Shown here: positions 7,297-53,801 of the stretch, one piece after another
How the letters are laid out: every line of letters starts with the position of its first letter
Position numbering within the stretch: the stretch's first letter is position 1
NCBI GenBank assembly: GCA_029975165.1
Contig: JARKPR010000039.1
Coordinates: forward strand, 1 to 64,000
Direction: 5' to 3'
DNA from: Selenomonadales bacterium
GTDB taxonomy: Bacteria; Bacillota; Negativicutes; Sporomusales; UBA7701
Length of the DNA: 64,000 bases
The notes under the pieces: model-generated
What the model was told of the DNA's origin: nothing
The model's input: the letters and a program-made list of their open reading frames with translations, nothing else
Database searches by the model: none
Translations under genes and position numbers: made by a program

Positions 7297-7599
7297 TCAA
7301 ATTTCCCACGGCCAGGGGCCCTCGACCCACTGCCACGGCGTCCGCGAAAAACCGCCCCAGCCGAAATTGAACAACGGACCGAACGCGGCCTCGTACTCCT
7401 TCCGCATCTGCCTCAGGACTTCCACCGCGCAATTGTAATCGTTCACCGCATCCTCGTCGCAGGGATGGGTATCGAGGTACAGGTTGAGCTCCACCGCCAC
7501 GAACTCCATCTCCTGGATCCTCATCAGCATGGCGGCCTGTTCTTTGCAATCCACGAATCCTTCACCTCCGTCGCCTTTATTTCGGGATGGGATAGGCAC
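7297..7599 (-). CDS. cotJB: spore coat protein CotJB
   Basis: A 100-residue protein with the CotJB pattern: LMRIQEMEFVAVELNLYLDT, then HPCDEDAVNDYN, and a C-terminus rich in W, G and P (FNFGWGGFSRTPWQW). It overlaps the end of cotJA by 23 bases, so translation is probably coupled. A later ATG in the same frame (MLMRIQEME) is a possible start, but the upstream ATG gives the usual length. Its role is structural in the spore coat. Confidence 0.9.
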   Translation of the reverse strand: MPIPSRNKGDGGEGFVDCKEQAAMLMRIQEMEFVAVELNLYLDTHPCDEDAVNDYNCAVEVLRQMRKEYEAAFGPLFNFGWGGFSRTPWQWVEGPWPWEI

Positions 7600-8329: not shown

Positions 8330-9520
8330 TTACTTCTCCGGCCTCCGGATCGTGCGGCGGTCCACCACCCGTATCCGGGCGCCCGCGCCGCTATCCTCGG
8401 CCCGCGTAGTAACGGGCGCGCTGCTGCCGGCGGAATGGCGGCTCACGCTGATCAGTAGCCCGACCGCCAGCAGATTCACGACCAGCGACGTCCCGCCGAA
8501 GCTGATGAACGGCAGCGGGATCCCCGTCACCGGCAGCAGGCCGCACACCATCGCGATATTGCCCACCGCCTGGCCGACGATCAGGAATGTCGCCCCCGTC
8601 GCCGCCATCATGCCGAAGCCGTCGCTTGCCCGCAGGGCCGTCTTGATGCCGTACCACGCCAAAGCGGCGAACAGCGCCAGCACAAGCGCCGCGCCCGCAA
8701 AGCCCATCTCCTGGCACAGCACCGCGAAAGCGAAGTCGGTATGCGCCTCGGGAAGATAATGAAACTTGCTCGCCCCCATGCCCAACCCGGTGCCGAAAAG
8801 GCTCCCCGAGCCTATGGCCAGCAGCGCCTGCACGGTCTGGTAGCCGCTCGTCTGCTCGTACGACCACGGATCGAGCCACGCCAGGATGCGCTCCGCCCGG
8901 TAAGCGGCGGCGTACACCAGATACACCGTCCCCATCGCCGCGCAGAACATCAGGCCGTAAACCTGGCGCCGCGGGATGCCGCTCGGCAGATACAGCAGCA
9001 GGCACACGCCGACCACCACCACCGCCGTCCCCATATCCGGCTGGAGCAGCACGAACGCCCCCATCGCCCCGGTCAAAACCACCGGCCAGGAAAATATCGT
9101 CACCGGCAGGCCCTTATCCAGGCGCGGGCCGATATAAACAGCCGCCATCAGCACCGCCGCCAGCTTCGCGAACTCCGACGGCTGGAACTTGACCCCCAGC
9201 CGCAGCCACCGCCGGGCCCCATTCGCATCCACCCCGCTCACGTGCACGGCCAGCAGCATCGCCAGCACCGCCAGGACGAACAACGGCAGATAATTCCTTA
9301 GCCGGCGATAATCGACGCGTGCCATCACCGCCAACCCTACCATGCCCAGCAGAAAGGCCACCAGGTGCCTCTTCAGGAAAAAATAACTGTCGTTCAGAAT
9401 CTGCCCGGCCAGGACGAAACTGGCGCTGAACACATTGATCGTGCCGATCGCGAACAGCATGAGCACAATATAAAAAACCGCCTCGCCGGGGCTGGCCCAC
9501 GGGACAGGCAACCTGCGCAC
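8330..9520 (-). CDS. FtsW/RodA/SpoVE-family peptidoglycan glycosyltransferase
   Basis: A 396-residue polytopic protein of the SEDS family. Diagnostic parts are NGARRWLRLGVKFQPSEFAK, LLQPDMGTA, GSLFGTGLGMG, LPEAHTDFAFAVLCQEMG and GIPLPFISFGGTSLVVNL. SEDS proteins polymerise lipid II with a partner transpeptidase in division, elongation or spore cortex synthesis. The start is GTG 9520, which has AAGGAGG seven bases upstream; the open frame continues far upstream only because it is antisense to the next gene. No penicillin-binding protein or mur gene is adjacent, so division, elongation and sporulation roles cannot be told apart. Confidence 0.9.
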   Translation of the reverse strand: MRRLPVPWASPGEAVFYIVLMLFAIGTINVFSASFVLAGQILNDSYFFLKRHLVAFLLGMVGLAVMARVDYRRLRNYLPLFVLAVLAMLLAVHVSGVDANGARRWLRLGVKFQPSEFAKLAAVLMAAVYIGPRLDKGLPVTIFSWPVVLTGAMGAFVLLQPDMGTAVVVVGVCLLLYLPSGIPRRQVYGLMFCAAMGTVYLVYAAAYRAERILAWLDPWSYEQTSGYQTVQALLAIGSGSLFGTGLGMGASKFHYLPEAHTDFAFAVLCQEMGFAGAALVLALFAALAWYGIKTALRASDGFGMMAATGATFLIVGQAVGNIAMVCGLLPVTGIPLPFISFGGTSLVVNLLAVGLLISVSRHSAGSSAPVTTRAEDSGAGARIRVVDRRTIRRPEK

Positions 9521-45970: not shown

Positions 45971-46441
45971 TCATCGCCTGAGGGTGGCGATGAGCCGGCG
46001 GGAGTCGAGGAGGAGGCCGACGGCGGCCTCGGGGCCGGGAACGACGATGTCGGCGGCAAGGAGGGAGGGGACGCTGGCGCCTTCGGGGCCGACGATGCAG
46101 ACGGCGAGGGCGGCGGCGGCGAACATTTCGGCGTCGTTGACGCCGTTGCCGACCGCGACGACGCCTTCGGCGCCAGCGGCGACGACGTAGGCCGCTTTGT
46201 CGGGGCCGCCCTGGCCGGGCCCCAGGACGACGAGCTCGACGGGGAGACGGCAGAGCTGGGCGCGGGCCAGGCCGAAGGTGTCGGCGGTGACGATGACGAC
46301 GCGCAGCTTCTGGGCGAGGACGGCGAGCAGGCTGCCGACGGCGGCCGAGACGACGCCGTCGACGGCCAGGGTGCCGTTGTAGTCGAAGACGGCGGTGTGG
46401 AAGTTGTATTCGCGGCCGTCGGGCAATTTGACGGTGAGCAT
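45971..46441 (-). CDS. HAD-family protein, soluble P-type-ATPase-like (COG4087 type)
   Basis: The 156-residue protein has HAD motif I as VFDYNGTLAVDG (D20, with Asn instead of the second Asp), motif II VVIVTADTFG and motif IV VVAVGNGVNDAEMF. The Asn form is typical of the small COG4087 proteins that look like the phosphorylation domain of P-type ATPases. The substrate is unknown. It lies between glnS and a small membrane protein on the same strand with wide gaps. Confidence 0.82.
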   Translation of the reverse strand: MLTVKLPDGREYNFHTAVFDYNGTLAVDGVVSAAVGSLLAVLAQKLRVVIVTADTFGLARAQLCRLPVELVVLGPGQGGPDKAAYVVAAGAEGVVAVGNGVNDAEMFAAAALAVCIVGPEGASVPSLLAADIVVPGPEAAVGLLLDSRRLIATLRR

Positions 46442-46510
46442 AGGCGGTACCTCCCGAAGATGGTGTCTATGTTATTATTTGGCAGACGGGGCGAAAAAAT
46501 CCTGCAAAAA

Positions 46511-46534
46511 AACCTCTCCGCAGGGCGGGAGGTT
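46511..46534 (-). terminator. terminator behind the palindromic element
   Basis: AACCTC and GAGGTT close around an inner CCGC/GCGG pair; on the minus strand T7 follows. It ends the transcript of the small membrane gene after passing the palindromic element. Confidence 0.7.
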
Positions 46535-46552
46535 GGCAGAAAGCCGCAGACC

Positions 46553-46607
46553 GTTCAGAAAGCCCCAGATGCAAGGCGCTCTGAGGAGCAACGCCGCAGA
46601 TGGGGCT
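46553..46607. repeat. palindromic repeat element, short copy
   Basis: GTTCAGAA is followed by AGCCCCA, GATGCAA, GGCG, a CTC-TGAG-GAG hairpin, CAA, CGCC, GCAGA and TGGGGCT. The outer AGCCCCA/TGGGGCT and inner GGCG/CGCC pair around an asymmetric loop. The element starts four bases behind the stop codon of the minus-strand gene at 46611. The same borders recur at 52.6 kb with a longer interior. Confidence 0.75.
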
Positions 46608-46610
46608 GCC

Positions 46611-46799
46611 CTATATATCGTTGGGCCGTTCCGGCGTCTTGCCCATCCGCTCCAGGCTGGCGGCGATGCTCTTGAGCGAGCGGGCGATACGGGTGAGCTG
46701 GGCGAGGGCGTAGATGACCACGACGACGTACAGGAGGACGAATACTACTCCGAAGCCGCTCATGAAGCCGAACATGTGACCGCCGTAGCCGTAACCCAT
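46611..46799 (-). CDS. small membrane protein
   Basis: A 62-residue protein: a Gly/Tyr/Phe-rich start (GYGYGGHMFGFMSGFG), one membrane segment (VVFVLLYVVVVIYALAQ) and a basic helical tail (RIARSLKSIAASLERMG). Not recognised; similar single-helix proteins occur widely in anaerobic Firmicutes. GGAGGG lies before ATG 46799. The longer frame upstream has no support. Confidence 0.65.
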   Translation of the reverse strand: MGYGYGGHMFGFMSGFGVVFVLLYVVVVIYALAQLTRIARSLKSIAASLERMGKTPERPNDI

Positions 46800-46892
46800 T
46801 ATGGCAACCCTCCGCGATATATGATGTCGATGTTTTAGTATGCGCCGGGGAGGGGAGGAGTATGTACGGGGGAGGGTGTGGCGTGGTAAAAC

Positions 46893-46918
46893 AAAAAGGA
46901 CCTTATTCGGTCCTTTTT
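46893..46918 (-). terminator. terminator
   Basis: AAAAAGGACC-TTATTC-GGTCCTTTTT, a perfect ten-base-pair stem about 70 bases beyond the stop of the 125-residue gene on the minus strand. Confidence 0.85.
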
Positions 46919-46987
46919 GCCGGTTTTCGGACATAGTAGCATGGATTTTCTTGTCTAATATCATCATAGTTGCAAGTCTTTGTCGAA

Positions 46988-47365
46988 TTATACTTGGTCT
47001 TTGAGGGCTTTTTCGGCGATGGCTTTTACCCCTTCCCACCCTGGGGCGGAGGCGAGGGCGATGATTTTGCGGAGTTTGCCGATGGGCGAGTCGTCGGGGT
47101 CGAGGCTGAGGGCTTTTTCGACGTAGGCGGTGCCGCGGCGGGTGAGGGCGATGCTGTCGGTGGTGAAGGCGACGGGGGCGTCGTCTTCGTCGCCGAATTT
47201 GACGGTGATGCCGCTGATGAGGCCGGCGGCGTAGAGGGCGTTGGCGGCGCGGCCGAGGGCGTCGCCGGCGAGGCCGATGCTCTGGGCGGCGGCGAACATT
47301 TGCGGCGCTTTGCCGTTCCGTTCGGCGTAGAGGGTGTAGAGGAGCTTTTCGGCGTTGGTGTCCAT
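46988..47365 (-). CDS. hypothetical protein, possibly winged-helix
   Basis: The 125-residue protein begins AEKLLYTLYAERNGKAPQM, then GRAANALYAAGLISGITVKF and IALTRRGTAYVEKALSLD. The helix-helix-turn-strand order resembles a small winged-helix domain of the kind seen in YjcQ-like proteins, followed by a C-terminal helical part. No enzyme motif is seen. GGGGG precedes the ATG. Single gene with terminator. Confidence 0.6.
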   Translation of the reverse strand: MDTNAEKLLYTLYAERNGKAPQMFAAAQSIGLAGDALGRAANALYAAGLISGITVKFGDEDDAPVAFTTDSIALTRRGTAYVEKALSLDPDDSPIGKLRKIIALASAPGWEGVKAIAEKALKDQV

Positions 47366-47466
47366 GGCGGTTCCCCCCTTGTTTGCTTGCTATAAGATTA
47401 TATGCGCGCCGGGTACGGTTTGGCAAAGGAGGGCGGGGAATAAGGCGGCGGCGGGAGGTTAAGCTA

Positions 47467-47697
47467 ATGGCAGGCGCGAAAAAAGGGGGCGATGGCGTGG
47501 AGCTGGGGATTCCGGTGACGGTGGAGCTGCCGCAGGAGGTTTATGAGGAGGCGGCGCGGATCGCCCGCTACCGGGGCGAGTCGGTGGGCGAGTTCGTGAC
47601 GGAGGCGGTGCGGGCGGCGGTGGCGGCGATGCGGGAGGAGTACGCGTATGCCGACTGGCCGCTCGGCCCGGCGCCGGGGTGGGAGAACAGGCGGTAA
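47467..47697 (+). CDS. ribbon-helix-helix-type small protein
   Basis: A 76-residue protein with a CopG/Arc-like core: IPVTVELPQEVYEEAARIAR followed by GESVGEFVTEAVRAAVAAM. The strand-helix-helix order and spacing fit an RHH DNA-binding domain. A C-terminal DWPLGPAPGWE tail follows. GGGAGG lies ten bases before ATG 47467. No toxin gene is adjacent, so this is not obviously an antitoxin. Confidence 0.6.
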   Translation: MAGAKKGGDGVELGIPVTVELPQEVYEEAARIARYRGESVGEFVTEAVRAAVAAMREEYAYADWPLGPAPGWENRR

Positions 47698-47728
47698 AAA
47701 AAGGAACCCCCGGCAAGGGGGCGGGAGA

Positions 47729-47775
47729 GGCAAAGATGTCAGCCTTCCGGGCAGCCGGAAGGCTTGTGCTTTGCC
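47729..47775 (+). terminator. long hairpin after the RHH-type gene
   Basis: GGCAAAG and CTTTGCC enclose a second stem, AGCCTTCCGG with CCGGAAGGCT, separated by small internal loops; TTTGTTATT follows. It is read as a terminator, though it also lies 110 bases upstream of the c-di-GMP enzyme gene and could act in its leader. Confidence 0.6.
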
Positions 47776-47885
47776 TTTGTTATTCGGTTATTTTCAGGTT
47801 TATTGCTTTTTTGGCGTTTTCTGGGAGGAGGTGGCGGCGGCTGGCAAGAAGTGTATGGTGATTATGTTGCTGGAGGCTGGGGCTT

Positions 47886-49661
47886 TTGGATCGACGGCTG
47901 GGCGTTGCCGAGTATGCCGAGGTTGTGGAGAATATGGGCCAGGGGCTGCTGGTTTTCGCGATCCCGGAGGAAGGCGGCGCGTGGGTTCCGGTGTATATGA
48001 GCCCCGAGGCGGCGCGGCTGCTGGCGCTGCCGGCCGGGAGGCGGGGATGGGATACGTGCCCGCTCCGGGAGTGCTTGCCGGCGGTGCTGGCGGCGGTGGC
48101 GGCGACGGGGGAGAGGCGGACGACGGAGGAGCGCCTGGGGGCGGACGCGGCGGAACGGTGGCTGCGGCTGCGGTTTTTCCCGCTGCGGGGCGGCAGGCGG
48201 ATCGGCGCGCTGCTGGAGGATGCTACGGAGGCGCGGCAGACGCAGCGACGGCTGGCGGAGAGCGAGGCTTTGTTCCGGATGCTGTCGGAGAGCAGCCGGG
48301 ACTGCTTGTGCCTGCACGCGGACAGGGGCCGCTATGTTTATGTTTCGCCGGCGACCAAGCTGATATTGGGGTATGAGCCGGAGGAGATGGCGGGCAGGAC
48401 GCCGTTCGATTTTGCCCATCCCGACGATCTGCAGGCGATTTTGGAGCCTTTCCGCCGCATGATGGTTACGGGGATGCCGTACGGGAGGGTTACGGCCCGG
48501 TATCGCCACAAGAACGGGGAGTACCGTTGGCTGGAGACGAGCGTGGTGCGGGTGGCGGGCTGCCCGCTGCCGGGGGTGGTGTTTCAGAGTTCGACGCGGG
48601 ATGTGACGGAGCGGAAGCAGTTGGAGGAGCAGTTGACGGAGATGGGGTACCGCGATGCTCTGACGGGGCTTTATAACCGCGGGTATTTCGAGGAGGAGCT
48701 GAAGCGCCTGGACCGCCGGCGAATCGGGTCGGTGGGGCTGATGATCGTGGATGTGGACGGGCTGAAGGTGGTGAACGACGCGCTGGGCCACGACGCGGGG
48801 GACGAGCTGCTGCGGCGGACGGCGCAGACGCTGGCGGAGTGTTTCCGCAAGGAGGACTTGATTGCCCGCATCGGCGGCGACGAGTTTGCGGTGCTTTTGA
48901 ACGATGCGACGATGGACGATCTCCGTATGGCGGGCCGGCGGATCATGGCGAAGGTGGAGTGCGATAATTGCGGGAATCCTCCGGCGCTGAGCCTGTCGCT
49001 GGGGTTCGCGGCGGGAGGCGATCATATGACGCCGATGCGGGAGCTTTTCCGGGCGGCGGATGATAATATGTACCGCGACAGGCTGTACCGGGGCAGGAGC
49101 GCCCGCGGGGCGATCGTGAATATTCTGCGGCGGCTGCTGACGGAGCGGGATGTGGCGACGGAGGAGCACGGCAGCCGCCTGGAGACGCTGGTGCTTAGGT
49201 TCGGCCGGGCGGCGGGGCTGAGCGAGGAGCAGTTGGGGGATCTGGCGCTGCTCGCCCAGTTCCACGATGTGGGGAAGGTGGGGGTGCCGGATGCGATCCT
49301 GAGCAAGGCCGGGCCGCTGACATCGCAGGAACGGGGCGCGGTGGAGCGGCATTGCGATGTGGGTTACCGGATCGCGTCGGCGTCGAGCGAGCTGATGCCG
49401 ATCGCGGAGTGGATTTTGCGGCATCACGAGTGGTGGAACGGCAAGGGGTATCCGCTGGGGCTGGCGGGCGAGGCTATTCCGTTCGAGTGCCGGCTGCTGG
49501 CGATCGCCGATGCTTACGACGCGATGAGGAGTTCCCGGCCGTACCGCAGGGCGCTGGGCCACGGGGAGGCGCTGGCGGAGCTGAGGCGCTACGCGGGCAG
49601 CCAGTTCGACCCGCGGCTGGTGGATATTTTCCTCAGCCTTGATTTCGAGGGCGGCGAATGA
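47886..49661 (+). CDS. PAS-PAS-GGDEF-HD-GYP c-di-GMP signalling protein
   Basis: The 591-residue soluble protein has two PAS domains (about 5-110 and 120-250), a diguanylate cyclase domain with an intact GGDEF in LIARIGGDEFAVLLND, and an HD-GYP-type domain (about 415-585) with FHDVGKVGVP and HHEWWNGKGYPLGL. Both catalytic signatures are close to consensus, so it could both make and break c-di-GMP; the usual HHExxDG is HHEWWNG. Translation probably starts at TTG 47886, behind GGAGG. PilZ proteins such as the one at 27 kb are possible readers. Confidence 0.9.
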   Translation: MDRRLGVAEYAEVVENMGQGLLVFAIPEEGGAWVPVYMSPEAARLLALPAGRRGWDTCPLRECLPAVLAAVAATGERRTTEERLGADAAERWLRLRFFPLRGGRRIGALLEDATEARQTQRRLAESEALFRMLSESSRDCLCLHADRGRYVYVSPATKLILGYEPEEMAGRTPFDFAHPDDLQAILEPFRRMMVTGMPYGRVTARYRHKNGEYRWLETSVVRVAGCPLPGVVFQSSTRDVTERKQLEEQLTEMGYRDALTGLYNRGYFEEELKRLDRRRIGSVGLMIVDVDGLKVVNDALGHDAGDELLRRTAQTLAECFRKEDLIARIGGDEFAVLLNDATMDDLRMAGRRIMAKVECDNCGNPPALSLSLGFAAGGDHMTPMRELFRAADDNMYRDRLYRGRSARGAIVNILRRLLTERDVATEEHGSRLETLVLRFGRAAGLSEEQLGDLALLAQFHDVGKVGVPDAILSKAGPLTSQERGAVERHCDVGYRIASASSELMPIAEWILRHHEWWNGKGYPLGLAGEAIPFECRLLAIADAYDAMRSSRPYRRALGHGEALAELRRYAGSQFDPRLVDIFLSLDFEGGE

Positions 49662-49669
49662 AGAAGTTT

Positions 49670-49688
49670 CCCCCGGTATAGCCGGGGG
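49670..49688 (+). terminator. terminator after the GGDEF/HD-GYP gene
   Basis: CCCCCGG-TATAG-CCGGGGG followed by T5. Confidence 0.85.
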
Positions 49689-49719
49689 TTTTTCTATGCG
49701 GGGATAGTTGCCGGCGGCG

Positions 49720-51102
49720 CTACCGCCAGAGCCACTGGAGGATGAGGAGGGCGGCAAGGCCTTCGAGGAGGAAGATGGCGGCGAACGGCCCGTTCCATTT
49801 TAAGGCGGCTTTGCCGGGGCTGCAGCCGGCCAGGGTGGACAGGGTGAGGATGGTGCCGGCGAAGGGGGAGATGGTGTAGGAGAGCGACCCGCCGAGCAGG
49901 AGGGCGAGGGCCAGCAATACTTCGTGATGGGGCATGGCGACGACGGGGCTGAGGATTTTGCCGATGAGCAGGAGGGAGATGAAGGGGTGGACGCCGGTGA
50001 AGGAGAGCAGGATGAGCAGCGGGGGGACGAGGAGCAGGAGGTAGCCGCCGGGCAGGCCGGCGCCGCCGGTGAGGCCGGCCAGCAATCTGGCCATGAGGCC
50101 GGTCTGGTCGACGATTTCGGAGAAGAGGCCGACGGAGATGAAGAGGGCGGCCAAGCCGGGCATGCCGTTGAGGGCTTTGCCCCAGTATTCCCGCCAGGCG
50201 GGTCCTGTCGCCGGCTGGCGGAGGCAGCACGCTATCCAGAGGATGGCGACGGTGAAGCCGGCGGTGAGGATGCGGGTGGTGCTGGTGAGGATGCGGGCCT
50301 GCTCCATGAGGACGATGAGCAGTATCACGGCGGCGATGACGAGGAGCAGGCCGGCGATTTTCCGCGTCCCGCCGGCGGCGGCGACAGCGGTGTCCGCTCC
50401 GCCGCCGGCGAGGGGCTTGAGGGTGATGGACCTGCTTTCGATGAGGGCGGAGGTGAGGATCCCCAGCAGGGCCATGCCGGCGGCGGGGATGAAGACCTGA
50501 AACCACGGCGCCCCTGTGGCCTGCAGGACGAGCATGACGCTGACCACCCCCGGCGCCCAGAGGGTGGAGAGGCTGAAGCCTCTGGAGACGGCGGTGACCA
50601 GAAACCGGTTGTGGTCGTCGACGATCTGCCTGGCGCCGTCGTGGAAGATGGAGAAGGCCAGCGGGTTGGCGCCGAAACCCAGCAGGGCGCCGAGCAGGTG
50701 GGCGACGAGGCTGACGAACATGTGCAGGGTGCCGCCGGTTTTGAAGTTTTCCAGGAGGTAATTTTTCAGGTACTGGTCGTAGCGGCCGACTTTGAGCGGG
50801 ATGATGAAGAGCTGCAGGACGGCCACGATGGCCACGAGGGGCAGCATGGAGCTTACGCCGGGGACGAGGACGGCGAGCGGCAGCCGGTAGTAGTAGATTG
50901 TCAGGACCGATAGCGCCAAAAAGGCGTAGACCGGCTTTTTGTAGGCGTCGCTCAGGCAGGCGAGGGCGCTGGCGAGGATGACCAGGCCGCAGAGGAAGAT
51001 GATGGTGCCGGCGAAGGGGAGCCGGAACGGGGCGAGCAGGAGCAGGCCGGACATGACGAGTACGGCCGTCTTGCAGATGGTGAGGGGGGTGGGGGTGGTC
51101 AT
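49720..51102 (-). CDS. multi-pass membrane transporter, family not certain
   Basis: The 460-residue protein has about 11-12 membrane segments. It includes GFGANPLAFSIFHDGARQIV, an inverted second half with FTGVHPFISLLLIGKIL and LLLGGSLSYTISPFAGTIL. Polar loops with Gly/Ser/Pro in the membrane (helical-hairpin type) suggest a member of the ion-transporter superfamily of anion or dicarboxylate carriers. The substrate is not identifiable. It stands alone and converges with the c-di-GMP gene. Confidence 0.65.
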   Translation of the reverse strand: MTTPTPLTICKTAVLVMSGLLLLAPFRLPFAGTIIFLCGLVILASALACLSDAYKKPVYAFLALSVLTIYYYRLPLAVLVPGVSSMLPLVAIVAVLQLFIIPLKVGRYDQYLKNYLLENFKTGGTLHMFVSLVAHLLGALLGFGANPLAFSIFHDGARQIVDDHNRFLVTAVSRGFSLSTLWAPGVVSVMLVLQATGAPWFQVFIPAAGMALLGILTSALIESRSITLKPLAGGGADTAVAAAGGTRKIAGLLLVIAAVILLIVLMEQARILTSTTRILTAGFTVAILWIACCLRQPATGPAWREYWGKALNGMPGLAALFISVGLFSEIVDQTGLMARLLAGLTGGAGLPGGYLLLLVPPLLILLSFTGVHPFISLLLIGKILSPVVAMPHHEVLLALALLLGGSLSYTISPFAGTILTLSTLAGCSPGKAALKWNGPFAAIFLLEGLAALLILQWLWR

Positions 51103-51202
51103 CCGTGTGCCTCCGTCGGTGTGGCGATTTAAACGTAATTTTCCCTGTCCGCCGCCGTTATCCTGCCTGGCTGTTATCGGCCGCGGCCGGCGGCAAAAAT
51201 AA

Positions 51203-51225
51203 AAGCCCCGCGTTAAGCGGGGCTT
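51203..51225 (-). terminator. terminator after tRNA-Thr
   Basis: AAGCCCCGC-GTTAA-GCGGGGCTT; on the minus strand TTATTTTTG follows, 11 bases after the CCA end. Confidence 0.88.
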
Positions 51226-51235
51226 GGCTTTTAAC

Positions 51236-51311
51236 TGGAGCCGGTAATAGGACTCGAACCTACGACCCGCGCATTACGAATGCGCTGCTCTACCAACTGA
51301 GCTATACCGGC
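51236..51311 (-). tRNA. tRNA-Thr (anticodon CGT)
   Basis: The minus strand folds as a normal cloverleaf: acceptor GCCGGTA/TACCGGC, D arm GCTCAGTTGGTAGAGC, anticodon stem GCGCA/TGCGC with loop TTCGTAA giving anticodon CGT, and T arm GTAGG-TTCGAGT-CCTAT, with encoded CCA. It reads ACG codons, a sensible need in this high-GC genome. Confidence 0.96.
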
Positions 51312-51326
51312 GATAGTCCGTTAATT

Positions 51327-51355
51327 ATTGTAGCGTCTCCGGCCGGAATTGTCAA
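51327..51355 (-). promoter_or_regulatory. promoter of tRNA-Thr
   Basis: On the minus strand a perfect TTGACA (51355-51350) and TACAAT (51332-51327) are 17 bases apart and point at the tRNA. Confidence 0.88.
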
Positions 51356-51710
51356 CCCGCGCCGCGCAGGGAATGTTTGTCGTGTACGGAGGCAGGGGCC
51401 GGGACAAGCGGCAATGAGGCGGCGCGGGGCGGCGGCCATGGCGAGCATTATTTTTTCGGTTTCGGCGGCCGGGAGGCCGGGCCGGCAGGGGCGGTCTTCA
51501 CGGCGGGCGGCGTAGAGGAGGTTTTGCCGCGGGCCTTGGGCGAGTCCGATGTTATGCTAGTGGGTTCGTTGAAAGATGCCGATTTACCTGCCGTTTACCG
51601 GGGGAGAATAGTTTGCCATTCTGACGCGGCCGTGCGGTGCCAAGTTTTTCAACGAGACAAGACCGGCCGGGTCTGGTAAACTGAAGTTAACATAAGGAGG
51701 TGGGGGGCGG
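51356..51710. other. gap without a supported gene
   Basis: About 350 bases between the tRNA promoter and the 54-residue gene. A 100-codon plus-strand frame at 51377-51679 is open but lacks a ribosome site and recognisable features. GGCCGGGAGGCCGGGCCGG near 51468 is GC-rich and self-complementary. Nothing else is seen. Confidence 0.5.
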
Positions 51711-51875
51711 GTGACTGTATACGACGTACTTAACAGGATCGACAGGGATTTGGTTGTCTGCGACAACGCTATCCGCCGTTCTCGCCGCAAGAAGGCGCTG
51801 TATGTGCTGGTGAAGGCGACGGAGCGCAAGCGGGCGCTGACGGAGATAAAGGAGTATATTTTGGCTAACCATTGA
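51711..51875 (+). CDS. 54-residue basic helical protein
   Basis: GTG 51711 lies behind AAGGAGGTGG, one of the best ribosome sites in the window, and opens a 54-codon frame (TVYDVLNRIDRDLVVCDNAI, then RRSRRKKALYVLVKATERKR). It is highly basic in the middle and predicted helical. Not recognised. It ends just before a terminator shared with the convergent gene. Confidence 0.6.
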   Translation: MTVYDVLNRIDRDLVVCDNAIRRSRRKKALYVLVKATERKRALTEIKEYILANH

Positions 51876-51912
51876 CAGGCGGCCGGCGACGGCCGCTTTT
51901 TCACGCAAAGAA

Positions 51913-51931
51913 CCTCCCGGACGAAGGGAGG
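51913..51931. terminator. shared terminator
   Basis: CCTCCC-GGACGAA-GGGAGG with AA before and T5 after. It serves the 54-residue gene; the minus-strand secreted-protein gene ends seven bases away. Confidence 0.7.
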
Positions 51932-51937
51932 TTTTTG

Positions 51938-52516
51938 CTATTTGGTCTTGGCGGCGGCCCGGGCTTGGCGGTATTGCCGTTCGAGCTGGTCGTCGAAGCA
52001 GGAAATGGCCACGACCTGGCTGTCTTTGTGCTTGTCGTTGTCGATGAAGGCGCCGGTCGTTTTCATGATGGAGATGTAGGCGAAGTCGGGCGCGGGTTTG
52101 TAGGGGCTGCGGAACAGCCAGAAGGGCGCGGGCGCGGCCGAGCTACGCTTGATGATGTCGGGAGGTCCCAATTTGTTGGCGTGAGCGGTATACAGGTTGT
52201 TGAAGGCCGTGCCGTCGGGGTCGGGGATGAGGATGACGCCGCCGGCCAGTTCGCCGGCGACGAAGCAGAAGCTGAAGTCGGCCGGGTAGCCGCCGAATTC
52301 ACCGCGGAAGACGAGCATGTCGCGGTTTTCGCTTTCCAGGACGGCGCTAAACGGTCCTGCGGCGACCGCTTTCTTGGTCGCGGCCGGATCGGCGCCCCAG
52401 GGAGCGCCGCAGAAGCCGTCGAGAAAGCGGGCGGGAGGGGCGGCCAGGGCGACGGGCAGGAGCAGGACGACCGCCAAGATCAGGACGAGAGGCATGGCGA
52501 GGAGCTTGACGCGCAT
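51938..52516 (-). CDS. secreted protein of unknown function
   Basis: The 192-residue protein has a signal peptide (LLAMPLVLILAVVLLLPVALA). The mature part begins FLDGFCGAPWGADPAATKKA and continues with a beta-rich domain (MLVFRGEFGGYPADFSFCFV, YISIMKTTGAFIDNDK). The W-G-xxP start of the mature part recalls small secreted proteins of Proteobacteria and anaerobes with no known role. AAGGAGG lies seven bases upstream of ATG 52516. Confidence 0.7.
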   Translation of the reverse strand: MRVKLLAMPLVLILAVVLLLPVALAAPPARFLDGFCGAPWGADPAATKKAVAAGPFSAVLESENRDMLVFRGEFGGYPADFSFCFVAGELAGGVILIPDPDGTAFNNLYTAHANKLGPPDIIKRSSAAPAPFWLFRSPYKPAPDFAYISIMKTTGAFIDNDKHKDSQVVAISCFDDQLERQYRQARAAAKTK

Positions 52517-52600
52517 CGGGAGCCTCCTTAAACGTTCTCTTTTTGTACGTTCGTCCTGCTGGCACGGTTTTCCTGCCCGTACAGACCTAGTTTGGTCGAC

Positions 52601-52786
52601 GTGAGGATGTTCAGAAGGCCCCAGATGCAAGGCGGTTCCGCCGGGCGCGCCGCGCCGCGTACTTCGGGGCGTACGCAAGCAAGCGTCCGGCGGAACAAGA
52701 GCGCCCCTCTTAGCGCTTTAGCGGTTAGAGGGGCGGCCTACCCCTTTGCGGGTGCAACGCAGATGGGGCCTTATCAACGTCCTCAC
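52601..52786. repeat. palindromic repeat element, long copy
   Basis: Outer arms GTGAGGATGTT (52601-52611) and AACGTCCTCAC (52776-52786) pair with one G-U type change. Inside, GGCCCCA (52617-52623) pairs with TGGGGCC (52764-52770), flanking GATGCAAGGCG on one side and CAACGCAGA on the other. Three more hairpins fill the interior, including CGCCCCTCT with AGAGGGGCG and TTCCGCCGG with CCGGCGGAA. The outer arm includes the azlD stop codon. It shares borders with the short copy at 46.55 kb. Confidence 0.78.
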
Positions 52787-53100
52787 CAGAGGCGGAGGAG
52801 GAGGATGGTGGCCATGCCGATGCCCATCGTCACCGGCACGCTGCCGAAGCGCCAGGCGGCGAGGGCGGCGACGAGGCCGGCCAGGAGGTAGGGGTTGTGC
52901 CAGGTGAGGTCGAGGCGGCCTTGGGGGAGGAGGAGGGAGGGGGCGATGAGGGCGGTGAGGATGCCGGTGGGGACGTGCCTGAGCCAGCGTCCGAGCCAGG
53001 CGGGGATGCCGGTGCCGCGGAAGGCGAGCTGGGCGCCGAAGCGGGTGAGGAAGGTGACGGCGGCCATGCCGAGGATGATGGCGAGGATGTCGCTTCTCAT
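52783..53100 (-). CDS. azlD: AzlD-type branched-chain amino acid exporter subunit
   Basis: The 105-residue protein has four membrane segments with the AzlD pattern (IILGMAAVTFLTRFGAQLAF, then WLRHVPTGILTALIAPSLLL). AzlCD exports branched-chain amino acids or analogues. It overlaps azlC by four bases. Its stop codon lies inside the outer arm of the palindromic element. Confidence 0.92.
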   Translation of the reverse strand: MRSDILAIILGMAAVTFLTRFGAQLAFRGTGIPAWLGRWLRHVPTGILTALIAPSLLLPQGRLDLTWHNPYLLAGLVAALAAWRFGSVPVTMGIGMATILLLRLW

Positions 53101-53801
53101 GCTTTCGCCTCCTTGTCGGGGGAGGGTTCGAGGAGGCCGCCGACGAGGGTGGCGGCGAGGGCGGCGAGGAGGATGTACCATTTGCCGGGGAGAAGGAGGG
53201 CGGCGGCTACGGCGACGACGGCGGCGACGAGGCAGACGGCGAGGCTGGCAGGGGTGGCGAGGCGGGGGACGAGCATGGCAAGGAAGGTGGCGGGCAGGGC
53301 GAAGTCGAGCCCCCAGGCGAGCGGGTCGGGGATGTATTCGCCAAGGAGGACGCCGGCGACGGTGGCGAGGAACCAGGCGACGTAGAGGGCGGCGCTGGCG
53401 CCGAGCTGGTGGCTGTCGCTGTAGCCGTGGCGGGCGATGCGGTCCATGGTGACGGCGTAGCTTTCGTCGACCATGACGAAGGCGAGGAGGGCCTGGCGGG
53501 CGAGGGGCAGGCGGGTGAGGTAGGGGGCGAGGGAGGCGCCCATGAGGAGGTGGCGGAGGTTGATGAGGAGGGTGGTGAGGACGATGAGGGTGAAGTCGGC
53601 GACGCCCATGCCGAGCATGGTGACGCTGATGAATTGGGCGGCGCCGGCGAAGACGGCGAGGGACATGAGGACGGTCTCAAGGGGGGTGAGGCCGACGGTG
53701 AGGCCGACGATGCCGAAGGTAGCGCCGAAGGGGACGACGCCGAGGAGGATGGGCAGGGCGTCGCGGACGCCGCGGTGGAGGTCGGCGGTGTTGACGGTCA
53801 T
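53097..53801 (-). CDS. azlC: AzlC-type branched-chain amino acid exporter subunit
   Basis: The 234-residue protein has the AzlC signature GVRDALPILLGVVPFGATFG, then FAGAAQFISVTMLG and LLINLRHLLMGASLAPYL. It is the large subunit of the AzlCD exporter in the inner membrane. AGGAG lies nine bases upstream of the ATG. The operon diverges from a MocR-type regulator gene, its likely controller. Confidence 0.93.
   Translation of the reverse strand: MTVNTADLHRGVRDALPILLGVVPFGATFGIVGLTVGLTPLETVLMSLAVFAGAAQFISVTMLGMGVADFTLIVLTTLLINLRHLLMGASLAPYLTRLPLARQALLAFVMVDESYAVTMDRIARHGYSDSHQLGASAALYVAWFLATVAGVLLGEYIPDPLAWGLDFALPATFLAMLVPRLATPASLAVCLVAAVVAVAAALLLPGKWYILLAALAATLVGGLLEPSPDKEAKA

Follow-up and report, generated by a model that had tools for sequence, protein, structure and literature searches.

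The closest described systems are 24 'short RNA elements' of Geobacter metallireducens, which share the centre GRCGTAGCGCTGCTACGCC (Aklujkar, 2009; PMC2700814, Additional file 4 Figure S1). A miniature inverted-repeat transposable element (MITE) named Chunjie, with terminal and direct repeats and a variable length of 178–235 bp, is known from Geobacter uraniireducens, and ERIC, BOX, RUP and SPRITE are non-coding intergenic palindromes that occur inserted into one another (PMC10969869). REPs measure 20–40 bp (PMC3733652). Excerpts of these papers, and of others cited alongside them (PMC2996986, PMC3543383, PMC2267715), form the background to this work. Here we describe a palindromic element that is present twice in a stretch of 64,000 nucleotides from a Selenomonadales bacterium (GCA_029975165.1, contig JARKPR010000039.1, positions 1 to 64,000; hereafter the window). 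The two copies belong to a real, large, mobile and modular palindromic family, which is most likely MITE-like and whose ageing copies keep their fold.

An initial annotation, made from the window alone, had proposed two copies of one structured palindrome with common borders and an about threefold difference in interior length. Both copies were found where it had placed them and with those borders. Measured from the start of one CAGATG to the end of the other, copy 1 spans 37 nt and copy 2 spans 144 nt. Within the window, R1, a covariance model built from 35 relatives, matched these two copies and no third up to an E value of 1, and the exact 16-mer was present only at the two copies, with one more place at three mismatches. 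The suspected dispersed repeat family does exist. In the window's genome the 13-mer CAGATGCAAGGCG has 69 exact matches (reversed control, 0); four genomes from the genus have 52, 122, 92 and 120, and another genus of the same family has 9, where the control gave 1. R1 found 116 copies in the window's genome and 106, at least 150, 135, at least 150 and 20 in relatives. A search for long hairpins that was independent of the core, over 26 stretches selected for containing copies (403,024 bases, 92,388 of them non-coding), returned 101 hairpins, 40 with the exact core and about 12 more with an altered core as judged by eye. The core is strongly though not absolutely conserved. In the 4.36-Mb contig C1 of one relative (G001), the exact 13-mer is absent from 1–916 kb and present 51 times beyond, where it forms runs of one orientation.

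Orthologous sites differ in occupancy among relatives (denoted G001 to G005). Site 1, that of copy 1, is occupied in the window's genome and in G004, whereas G001, G002 and G003 have no copy there. At site 2 the window's genome, G001 and G003 each carry the element, G004 has it twice in tandem, and G005 has a partial copy; G002 is left out of this comparison, azlC and azlD lying outside its stretch. The interiors at site 2 hold from none to three modules among genomes. Two further 13-kb orthologous blocks contained empty sites, one-armed remains and exchanged interiors. Only the right arm is left at 7517 in set A (G002 and G004) and at 8667 in set B (G003), the left tail with six arm letters is left at 8667 in set B of G004, and at 7460 in set B interiors have been exchanged between nearly identical arms.

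Unit ends are visible in Peptococcaceae BRH_c4a, in which eight distinct units carrying the same core were compared, each 187 bp from CTAG to CTAG and seven of them identical. At one locus of this genome (L128), deleting the unit and one CTAG reopens a frame of 265 aa; L153 and L251 give shorter joined frames, and the remaining sites with enough flank give none. A target-site duplication of CTAG is thus indicated by one reopened frame. Among the matches listed for BRH_c4a there are 25 inverted terminal pairs at a spacing of 164–167. Streptomyces NBRC 110028 has a terminal repeat of its own, different from that of the Peptococcaceae, with 42 inverted pairs at 145, 4 at 171–172 and 2 at 34–35 (100 listed of 111). 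The exact core is found in 13 of 14 Streptomyces units, and the remaining unit has one letter changed and is 27 bp longer. The units share with MITEs that they are short, non-coding and multi-copy. Terminal inverted repeats are present in the Peptococcaceae and Streptomyces units, and in the window's genus only stem arms are seen. Judged from the filled and empty sites of the genus and from the reopened frame in BRH_c4a, the element is shown to have moved, which bears out the mobile hairpin that the initial annotation had offered as one option.

Folding was considered for single copies and for the family. Copy 2 folds far better than shuffles (z of -6.8 as RNA and -7.1 as DNA). Taken alone, copy 1 is not distinct from them (z of -1.2 on one strand and -0.9 on the other), its right outer arm having degenerated past GGGGC. 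CAGATG had been taken for a conserved internal loop, since it occurs on both sides in the same orientation. This holds only for its middle. Set antiparallel against itself, the motif gives C-G, A-U, G.A, A.G, U-A and G-C, a mostly paired helix in which a tandem G.A step is open. In a consensus fold of 35 sequences hand-picked from the matches, columns 22–111 and 25–108 are paired in all 35 and columns 23–24 and 109–110 are unpaired, and 18 of the 28 predicted pairs have changed on both sides. The arms were also compared with controls in which right arms were shuffled among copies in 500 rounds, after arms more than 75% alike had been dropped. Outside the genus (45 of 90 distinct arm pairs) true arms pair at 80.6% of positions and reassigned ones at 52.3% (standard deviation 1.66, maximum 57.5%); within the genus (48 of 119 pairs) the values are 73.6% and 57.2% (standard deviation 1.42, maximum 61.9%). 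Paired changes are seen even at one orthologous site, 7460 in set B, where G003 reads AACGCC..GGAGCGTT and G001 reads AAGGCC..TGCCTT. This excess of pairing over reassigned arms, together with the changes on both sides, indicates on comparative grounds that the stem is kept and not its letters.

Interior length varies through modules. Sixty copies of the window's genome with a recognised partner range from 37 to 256 in length (median 87). Hairpin I stands alone in 16 of these and hairpin II in 12, and the others combine I or II with inserts B, C, D/E or F or fall outside all patterns. In the long loci of relatives, modules B and D/E were found 7 and 5 times inside copies and never outside, and module F 5 times inside and twice outside; a looser E-like stretch was read by eye in another repeat. 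These counts speak, as no more than a hint, against interior modules being independent mobile units. Two Streptomyces loci (L266 and L281) are 27 bp longer through an extra G+C-rich interior hairpin, and modular growth would therefore have occurred in Streptomyces as well. Three loci near contig ends (L007, L021 and L034) share a nearly identical left flank, probably a repeated operon; two hold complete copies with quite different interiors and in the third the copy is cut. A second, larger palindromic repeat of about 200–700 bp occurs at L230, L231 and L232 (the site of G001 element 16924), at 11224 in L207 and at 11208 in L216. Its ends are GTTCCCGGCATTGGG..CCCAATGCCGGGAAC and GGCGGAGAACGCAGGC..GCCTGCGTTCTCCGCC-like, and it holds stretches like modules E and F. 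At about 10950–11050 of L222 (G001; the site of G004 element 6176), the outer arms of the family enclose another core, AGACTAGCGAGGCG..CAAAGCTAGGCGACG.

The initial annotation had noted that each element begins within a few bases of the stop codon of a minus-strand gene. At copy 1 that stop starts 8 nt past CAGATG, and the azlD stop lies inside the right arm of copy 2, as it had said. With genes called by a hexamer model trained on the genus, 67 copies of the window's genome fell between co-directional genes in 44 cases and convergent genes in 17, with none between divergent genes or within genes and 6 unplaced (3 at locus edges, 3 lacking a gene on one side). The proposed 3' location held for 40 of the 44 co-directional copies, which are closer to the upstream stop; the median distance to that stop is 5.5 nt, and to the following start 114.5 nt. 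Thirty-one of the 44 are oriented opposite to the genes and 13 in the same sense. A subset of G001 (15 stretches, 25 copies) gave 18 co-directional, 6 convergent and 1 divergent placements, 16 opposite and 2 same orientations, and 16 of 18 closer to the stop. In the genus, an opposite-strand stop lies near the right end in 76 of 106 copies; in 68 it is 5–30 nt after CAGATG, and in 48 it is 17–24 nt after it, at the outer end of the arm. Outside the genus, 73 copies, several from the same genome, were judged by open frames and not gene models. Their right end adjoins an opposite-frame stop in 40 (frames of at least 120 codons; control 3.4%), or in 35 at 180 codons (control 1.7%), a frame ends within 90 nt of the left end in 29 (control 9.2%), and 6 lie within an open frame. 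Biases of both strand and stop codon are present in the genus. The family has further copies, these are not scattered without regard to genes, and compensatory changes accompany them.

The adjoining stops are often part of a CTAG. In the genus, stops adjoining the right arm lie within CTAG in 12 of 62 cases, compared with 31 of 643 other genes (p = 1.3e-4), and they are TAA or TAG in 51 of 62 compared with 383 of 643 (p = 3.3e-4). CTAG occurs at the right junction of 12 of 116 copies, and shifted windows, which are mostly coding, gave a mean of 0.7. In Streptomyces NBRC 110028, 14 units had sufficient flank, and in 12 of them a frame of 120 codons or more terminates at the TAG of a junction CTAG (at 7 right and 10 left ends). 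Of 12 CTAG elsewhere in these loci, 3 terminate such a frame (p = 0.004). These numbers are small and frames in G+C-rich DNA can be spurious.

Outside the genus, both core halves were found 35–65 nt apart in at least 119 stretches of public genomes. The 80 listed include Deltaproteobacteria, Nitrospirae, Methylomirabilota, Selenomonadales, Peptococcaceae, Streptomyces, Guyparkeria, Gallionella, Kuenenia, another member of the Planctomycetota, Bacteroidota, Gemmatimonadetes, Chloroflexi, Omnitrophota, Elusimicrobia and others. Some lone matches in this set may be chance or contamination, and the core, having been the search string, is the same by choice, the arms being free. In a sample of the phylum only 2 of 398 genomes matched, that of the window and a second one holding a single copy. 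Viral contigs gave no match, and none was returned from plasmids and phages by distant blastn. The distribution is patchy, yet spans many phyla. A simple scan found no T-tract in the element of the kind an intrinsic terminator would have, and this, together with the patchiness, is more in keeping with a mobile element than with a housekeeping RNA.

It is reasonable to think, with somewhat more confidence than doubt, that the element is a non-autonomous, MITE-like palindromic DNA element, mobile, targeted to CTAG or TA, and ageing by paired changes and module exchange. A putative transposase would act in trans and insert it at sites centred on CTAG or TA, and a second cause, either that copies survive only if they spare the gene or that gene ends are aimed at directly, would leave copies at stops. 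Copies would then age in place. Their arms would change in pairs, interior hairpin modules would be acquired, dropped or swapped, probably when copies recombine with one another through the core that is identical in them, and whole hairpins would be deleted so that one arm remains. The core (CAGATGCAAGGCG / CAACGCNGCAGATG), with its tandem G.A helix, would most likely be recognised by the mobility machinery or by a host factor, which we regard as the weakest step of the scheme.

Several observations weigh against this interpretation. Within the genus, no more than two sites plausibly carry a short duplication. No full-length element with a transposase appeared among the matches listed in the Peptococcaceae and Streptomyces genomes. 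The listed terminal-repeat pairs of both genomes are 145–172 bp apart, apart from two at 34–35, with none at 1–3 kb, and a search for distant inverted ends (L137, L148 and L185 left out) matched at L178 and L184 only neighbouring copies. A common core under unlike terminal repeats across phyla is unexpected for a MITE defined by its ends, and aged copies still pair, as though the fold remained under selection. The orientation bias of the genus has no counterpart in Streptomyces. The adjoining stop is TGA for 11 of 62 genus copies and for 13 of 40 from elsewhere, and the Peptococcaceae units with enough flank (n = 5) adjoin stops at no right and two left ends. Lastly, in 403 kb of genus DNA the 183 CTAG outside elements comprise 109 in non-coding DNA, 60 in genes and 14 at stops. 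The idea that in G+C-rich genomes most CTAG coincide with stop codons, which would account for the position, finds no support in these 14 of 183 sites or in the 3 of 12 in Streptomyces. Since most other CTAG are away from stops, a CTAG target alone is insufficient. Aim at gene ends, better survival of gene-sparing insertions, or usefulness there must add to it, and the location behind stops is only partly accounted for.

The initial annotation had also suggested action in 3' untranslated RNA. A functional RNA that protects 3' ends, blocks antisense transcripts or aids termination, mobility being mere spread, has a real but clearly smaller chance of being correct. It would explain why the right arm adjoins stops so often inside and outside the genus, and beyond what a CTAG target leads one to expect, and it agrees with the orientation bias in the window's genome and G001, with the paired arm changes, orthologous sites included, and with the order of stop, element and terminator at site 1. 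Set against it are the emptiness of site 1 in three of the four relatives examined there, the copies deleted down to one arm, the 2 of 398 genomes, the missing T-tract and, on our reading, a tandem G.A step located on the strand opposite most adjoining mRNAs. A bolder and rather doubtful proposal is that a single trans-acting system reads the folded core across Negativicutes, Desulfobacterota, Nitrospirota, Streptomyces and others, mobilises every hairpin bearing it, whatever the terminal repeats, and directs insertion to 3' gene ends; in one branch whole terminator hairpins would serve as the duplicated target.

Those duplicated hairpins are a further difficulty for a MITE-like element. Five copies (L042, L063, L103, L035 and L024) lie between duplicated terminator hairpins of 21–32 bp, which a transposase duplicating 4 bp does not explain. 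The hairpins sit at the element ends, 34–37 nt before CAGATG and 19–22 nt after, and score 18–27, and none of 306 shuffled flank pairs exceeded 11. A sixth, diverged pair may be present in L225. Direct repeats sought in all 103 genus flanks gave none above controls beyond the five named; a 9-bp repeat at L030 equalled the best control and was not counted. Insertion aimed at hairpins, by a structure-specific nuclease or priming at terminator feet with the whole hairpin as target duplication, would account for these five and for left-flank hairpins in 34 of 103 copies compared with 33 of 404 shifted windows (feet mostly 29–50 nt before CAGATG). It nevertheless seems unlikely, as only 5 of 103 copies show the duplication, all with similar left tails and arms, and ordinary stops are followed by hairpins at about the same frequency (137 of 465). 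The latter count speaks against hairpin feet as a general insertion target. A spread of ancient palindromes chiefly through recombination and template switching from hairpin to hairpin, with no transposase, would fit the exchange of modules at fixed sites and arms corrected to pair. It is very improbable, as identical 187-bp units, each bounded by CTAG on either side, occupy unrelated places, and for the Peptococcaceae and Streptomyces branches it is already unlikely. Most strongly disfavoured is a REP element moved by a RAYT (TnpA-REP) HUH transposase. Such elements are likewise small, palindromic, intergenic and multi-copy, but no Y1_Tnp (PF01797) was found in the window's genome (a draft, 96% complete) by a search that matched 5 of 14 control genomes, and in length, in its CTAG junctions and in its modular interior the element does not resemble the REPs described in the part of PMC3733652 consulted.

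Features of the two copies and their neighbours are collected in the table. For copy 1 the bounds given come from R1, and those of the initial annotation were 46553–46607. Near it, a terminator scan matched at 46524–46501 (shuffles average 0.5), and a larger hairpin, AACCTCTCC..GGGAGGTT, was read by eye at 46511–46534.

Table. Positions of the two element copies and adjoining features in the window.
Feature	Position	Strand	Basis
Copy 1, minimal form without interior module, right outer arm degenerate	46547..46623	+	R1, 50.1 bits, E 8e-14
Copy 1 left core CAGATGCAAGGCG	46566..46578	+	sequence
Copy 1 right core AACGCCGCAGATGG	46590..46603	+	sequence
Gene without Pfam match, stop (46611-46613) adjoining copy 1	46611..46799	-	
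Intrinsic-terminator-like hairpin(s) 3' of the 46611..46799 gene, past copy 1	46501..46534	-	
Copy 2, long form: outer stem, core, class II hairpin, module F	52601..52786	+	inverted repeat with 28-nt arms, fold, R1
Copy 2 left core CAGATGCAAGGCG	52622..52634	+	sequence
Copy 2 class II interior hairpin GTTCCGCC..GCGTAC..GTACGC..GGCGGAAC	52635..52696	+	
Copy 2 module F hairpins (CGCCCCTCTTAGCGC..GGGGCG and ACCCCTTTGCGGGT)	52697..52755	+	module F also in relatives
Copy 2 right core ACGCAGATGG, shortened	52757..52766	+	sequence
azlD, stop (52783-52785) within right arm of copy 2	52783..53100	-	PF05437, E 2e-25
azlC	53097..53801	-	PF03591, E 2e-39

An Rfam scan of the window gave no family for either copy. 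The sole match above its gathering score is a tRNA gene at 51239–51311 on the minus strand, and the single sub-threshold hit overlapping a copy is a human long non-coding RNA model (11 bits, E 2.6, 46400–46570).

If our interpretation is true, there is a palindromic repeat family that crosses phyla and has one internal core in place of common ends. Why bacterial palindromes sit behind genes would then become testable, the candidates being the target, death elsewhere, or action on the mRNA; a CTAG target alone, as measured here, is too weak. The modular interior, exchanged at fixed sites, would provide a natural series for effects on expression.

The literature searched, supplements being outside that search, yielded nothing that describes the core, the placement at stops or the modular interior; term searches gave none beyond the Geobacter elements, and papers containing core strings were unrelated by title. 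In the part of PMC2700814 consulted, the Geobacter elements are, like this family, intergenic and dispersed, and they are presented as RNA, without an analysis of mobility, stop codons or modules. Thirty of 33 matches to GRCGTAGCGCTGCTACGCC in two Geobacteraceae genomes (one mismatch allowed) were compared with R1, and 28 of these loci, chosen by a centre of which R1 itself holds a version, match it with a worst E value of 8e-5. The exact core CAGATGCAAGGCG is present in only 2 of the 30, L304 (the L122 copy in R1) and L319 (near the L084 copy, also in R1), and the other 26 matching loci have a different core. Judged by their cores, the Geobacter elements are a sister branch and not the same subfamily. 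Four Geobacteraceae loci (L299, L301, L309 and L317) are related hairpins with other cores around a GGCGTAGC centre, AGATCGTCG or AGATTTCGTCG on the left and GGCGAGATGG or GGAAGATGG on the right; L299 and L309 have no R1 match.

The likeness to Chunjie, as PMC10969869 describes it, is one of description only and lies in the MITE traits and the Geobacter lineage. REP and BIME elements are mosaic palindromes in 3' regions. This family differs from them in size and in its ends, and no RAYT gene was found in the window's genome. BOX elements are modular, and to our knowledge ERIC, BOX, RUP and SPRITE are limited to narrow lineages. In contrast, the family described here has one internal core over many phyla, under ends that differ.

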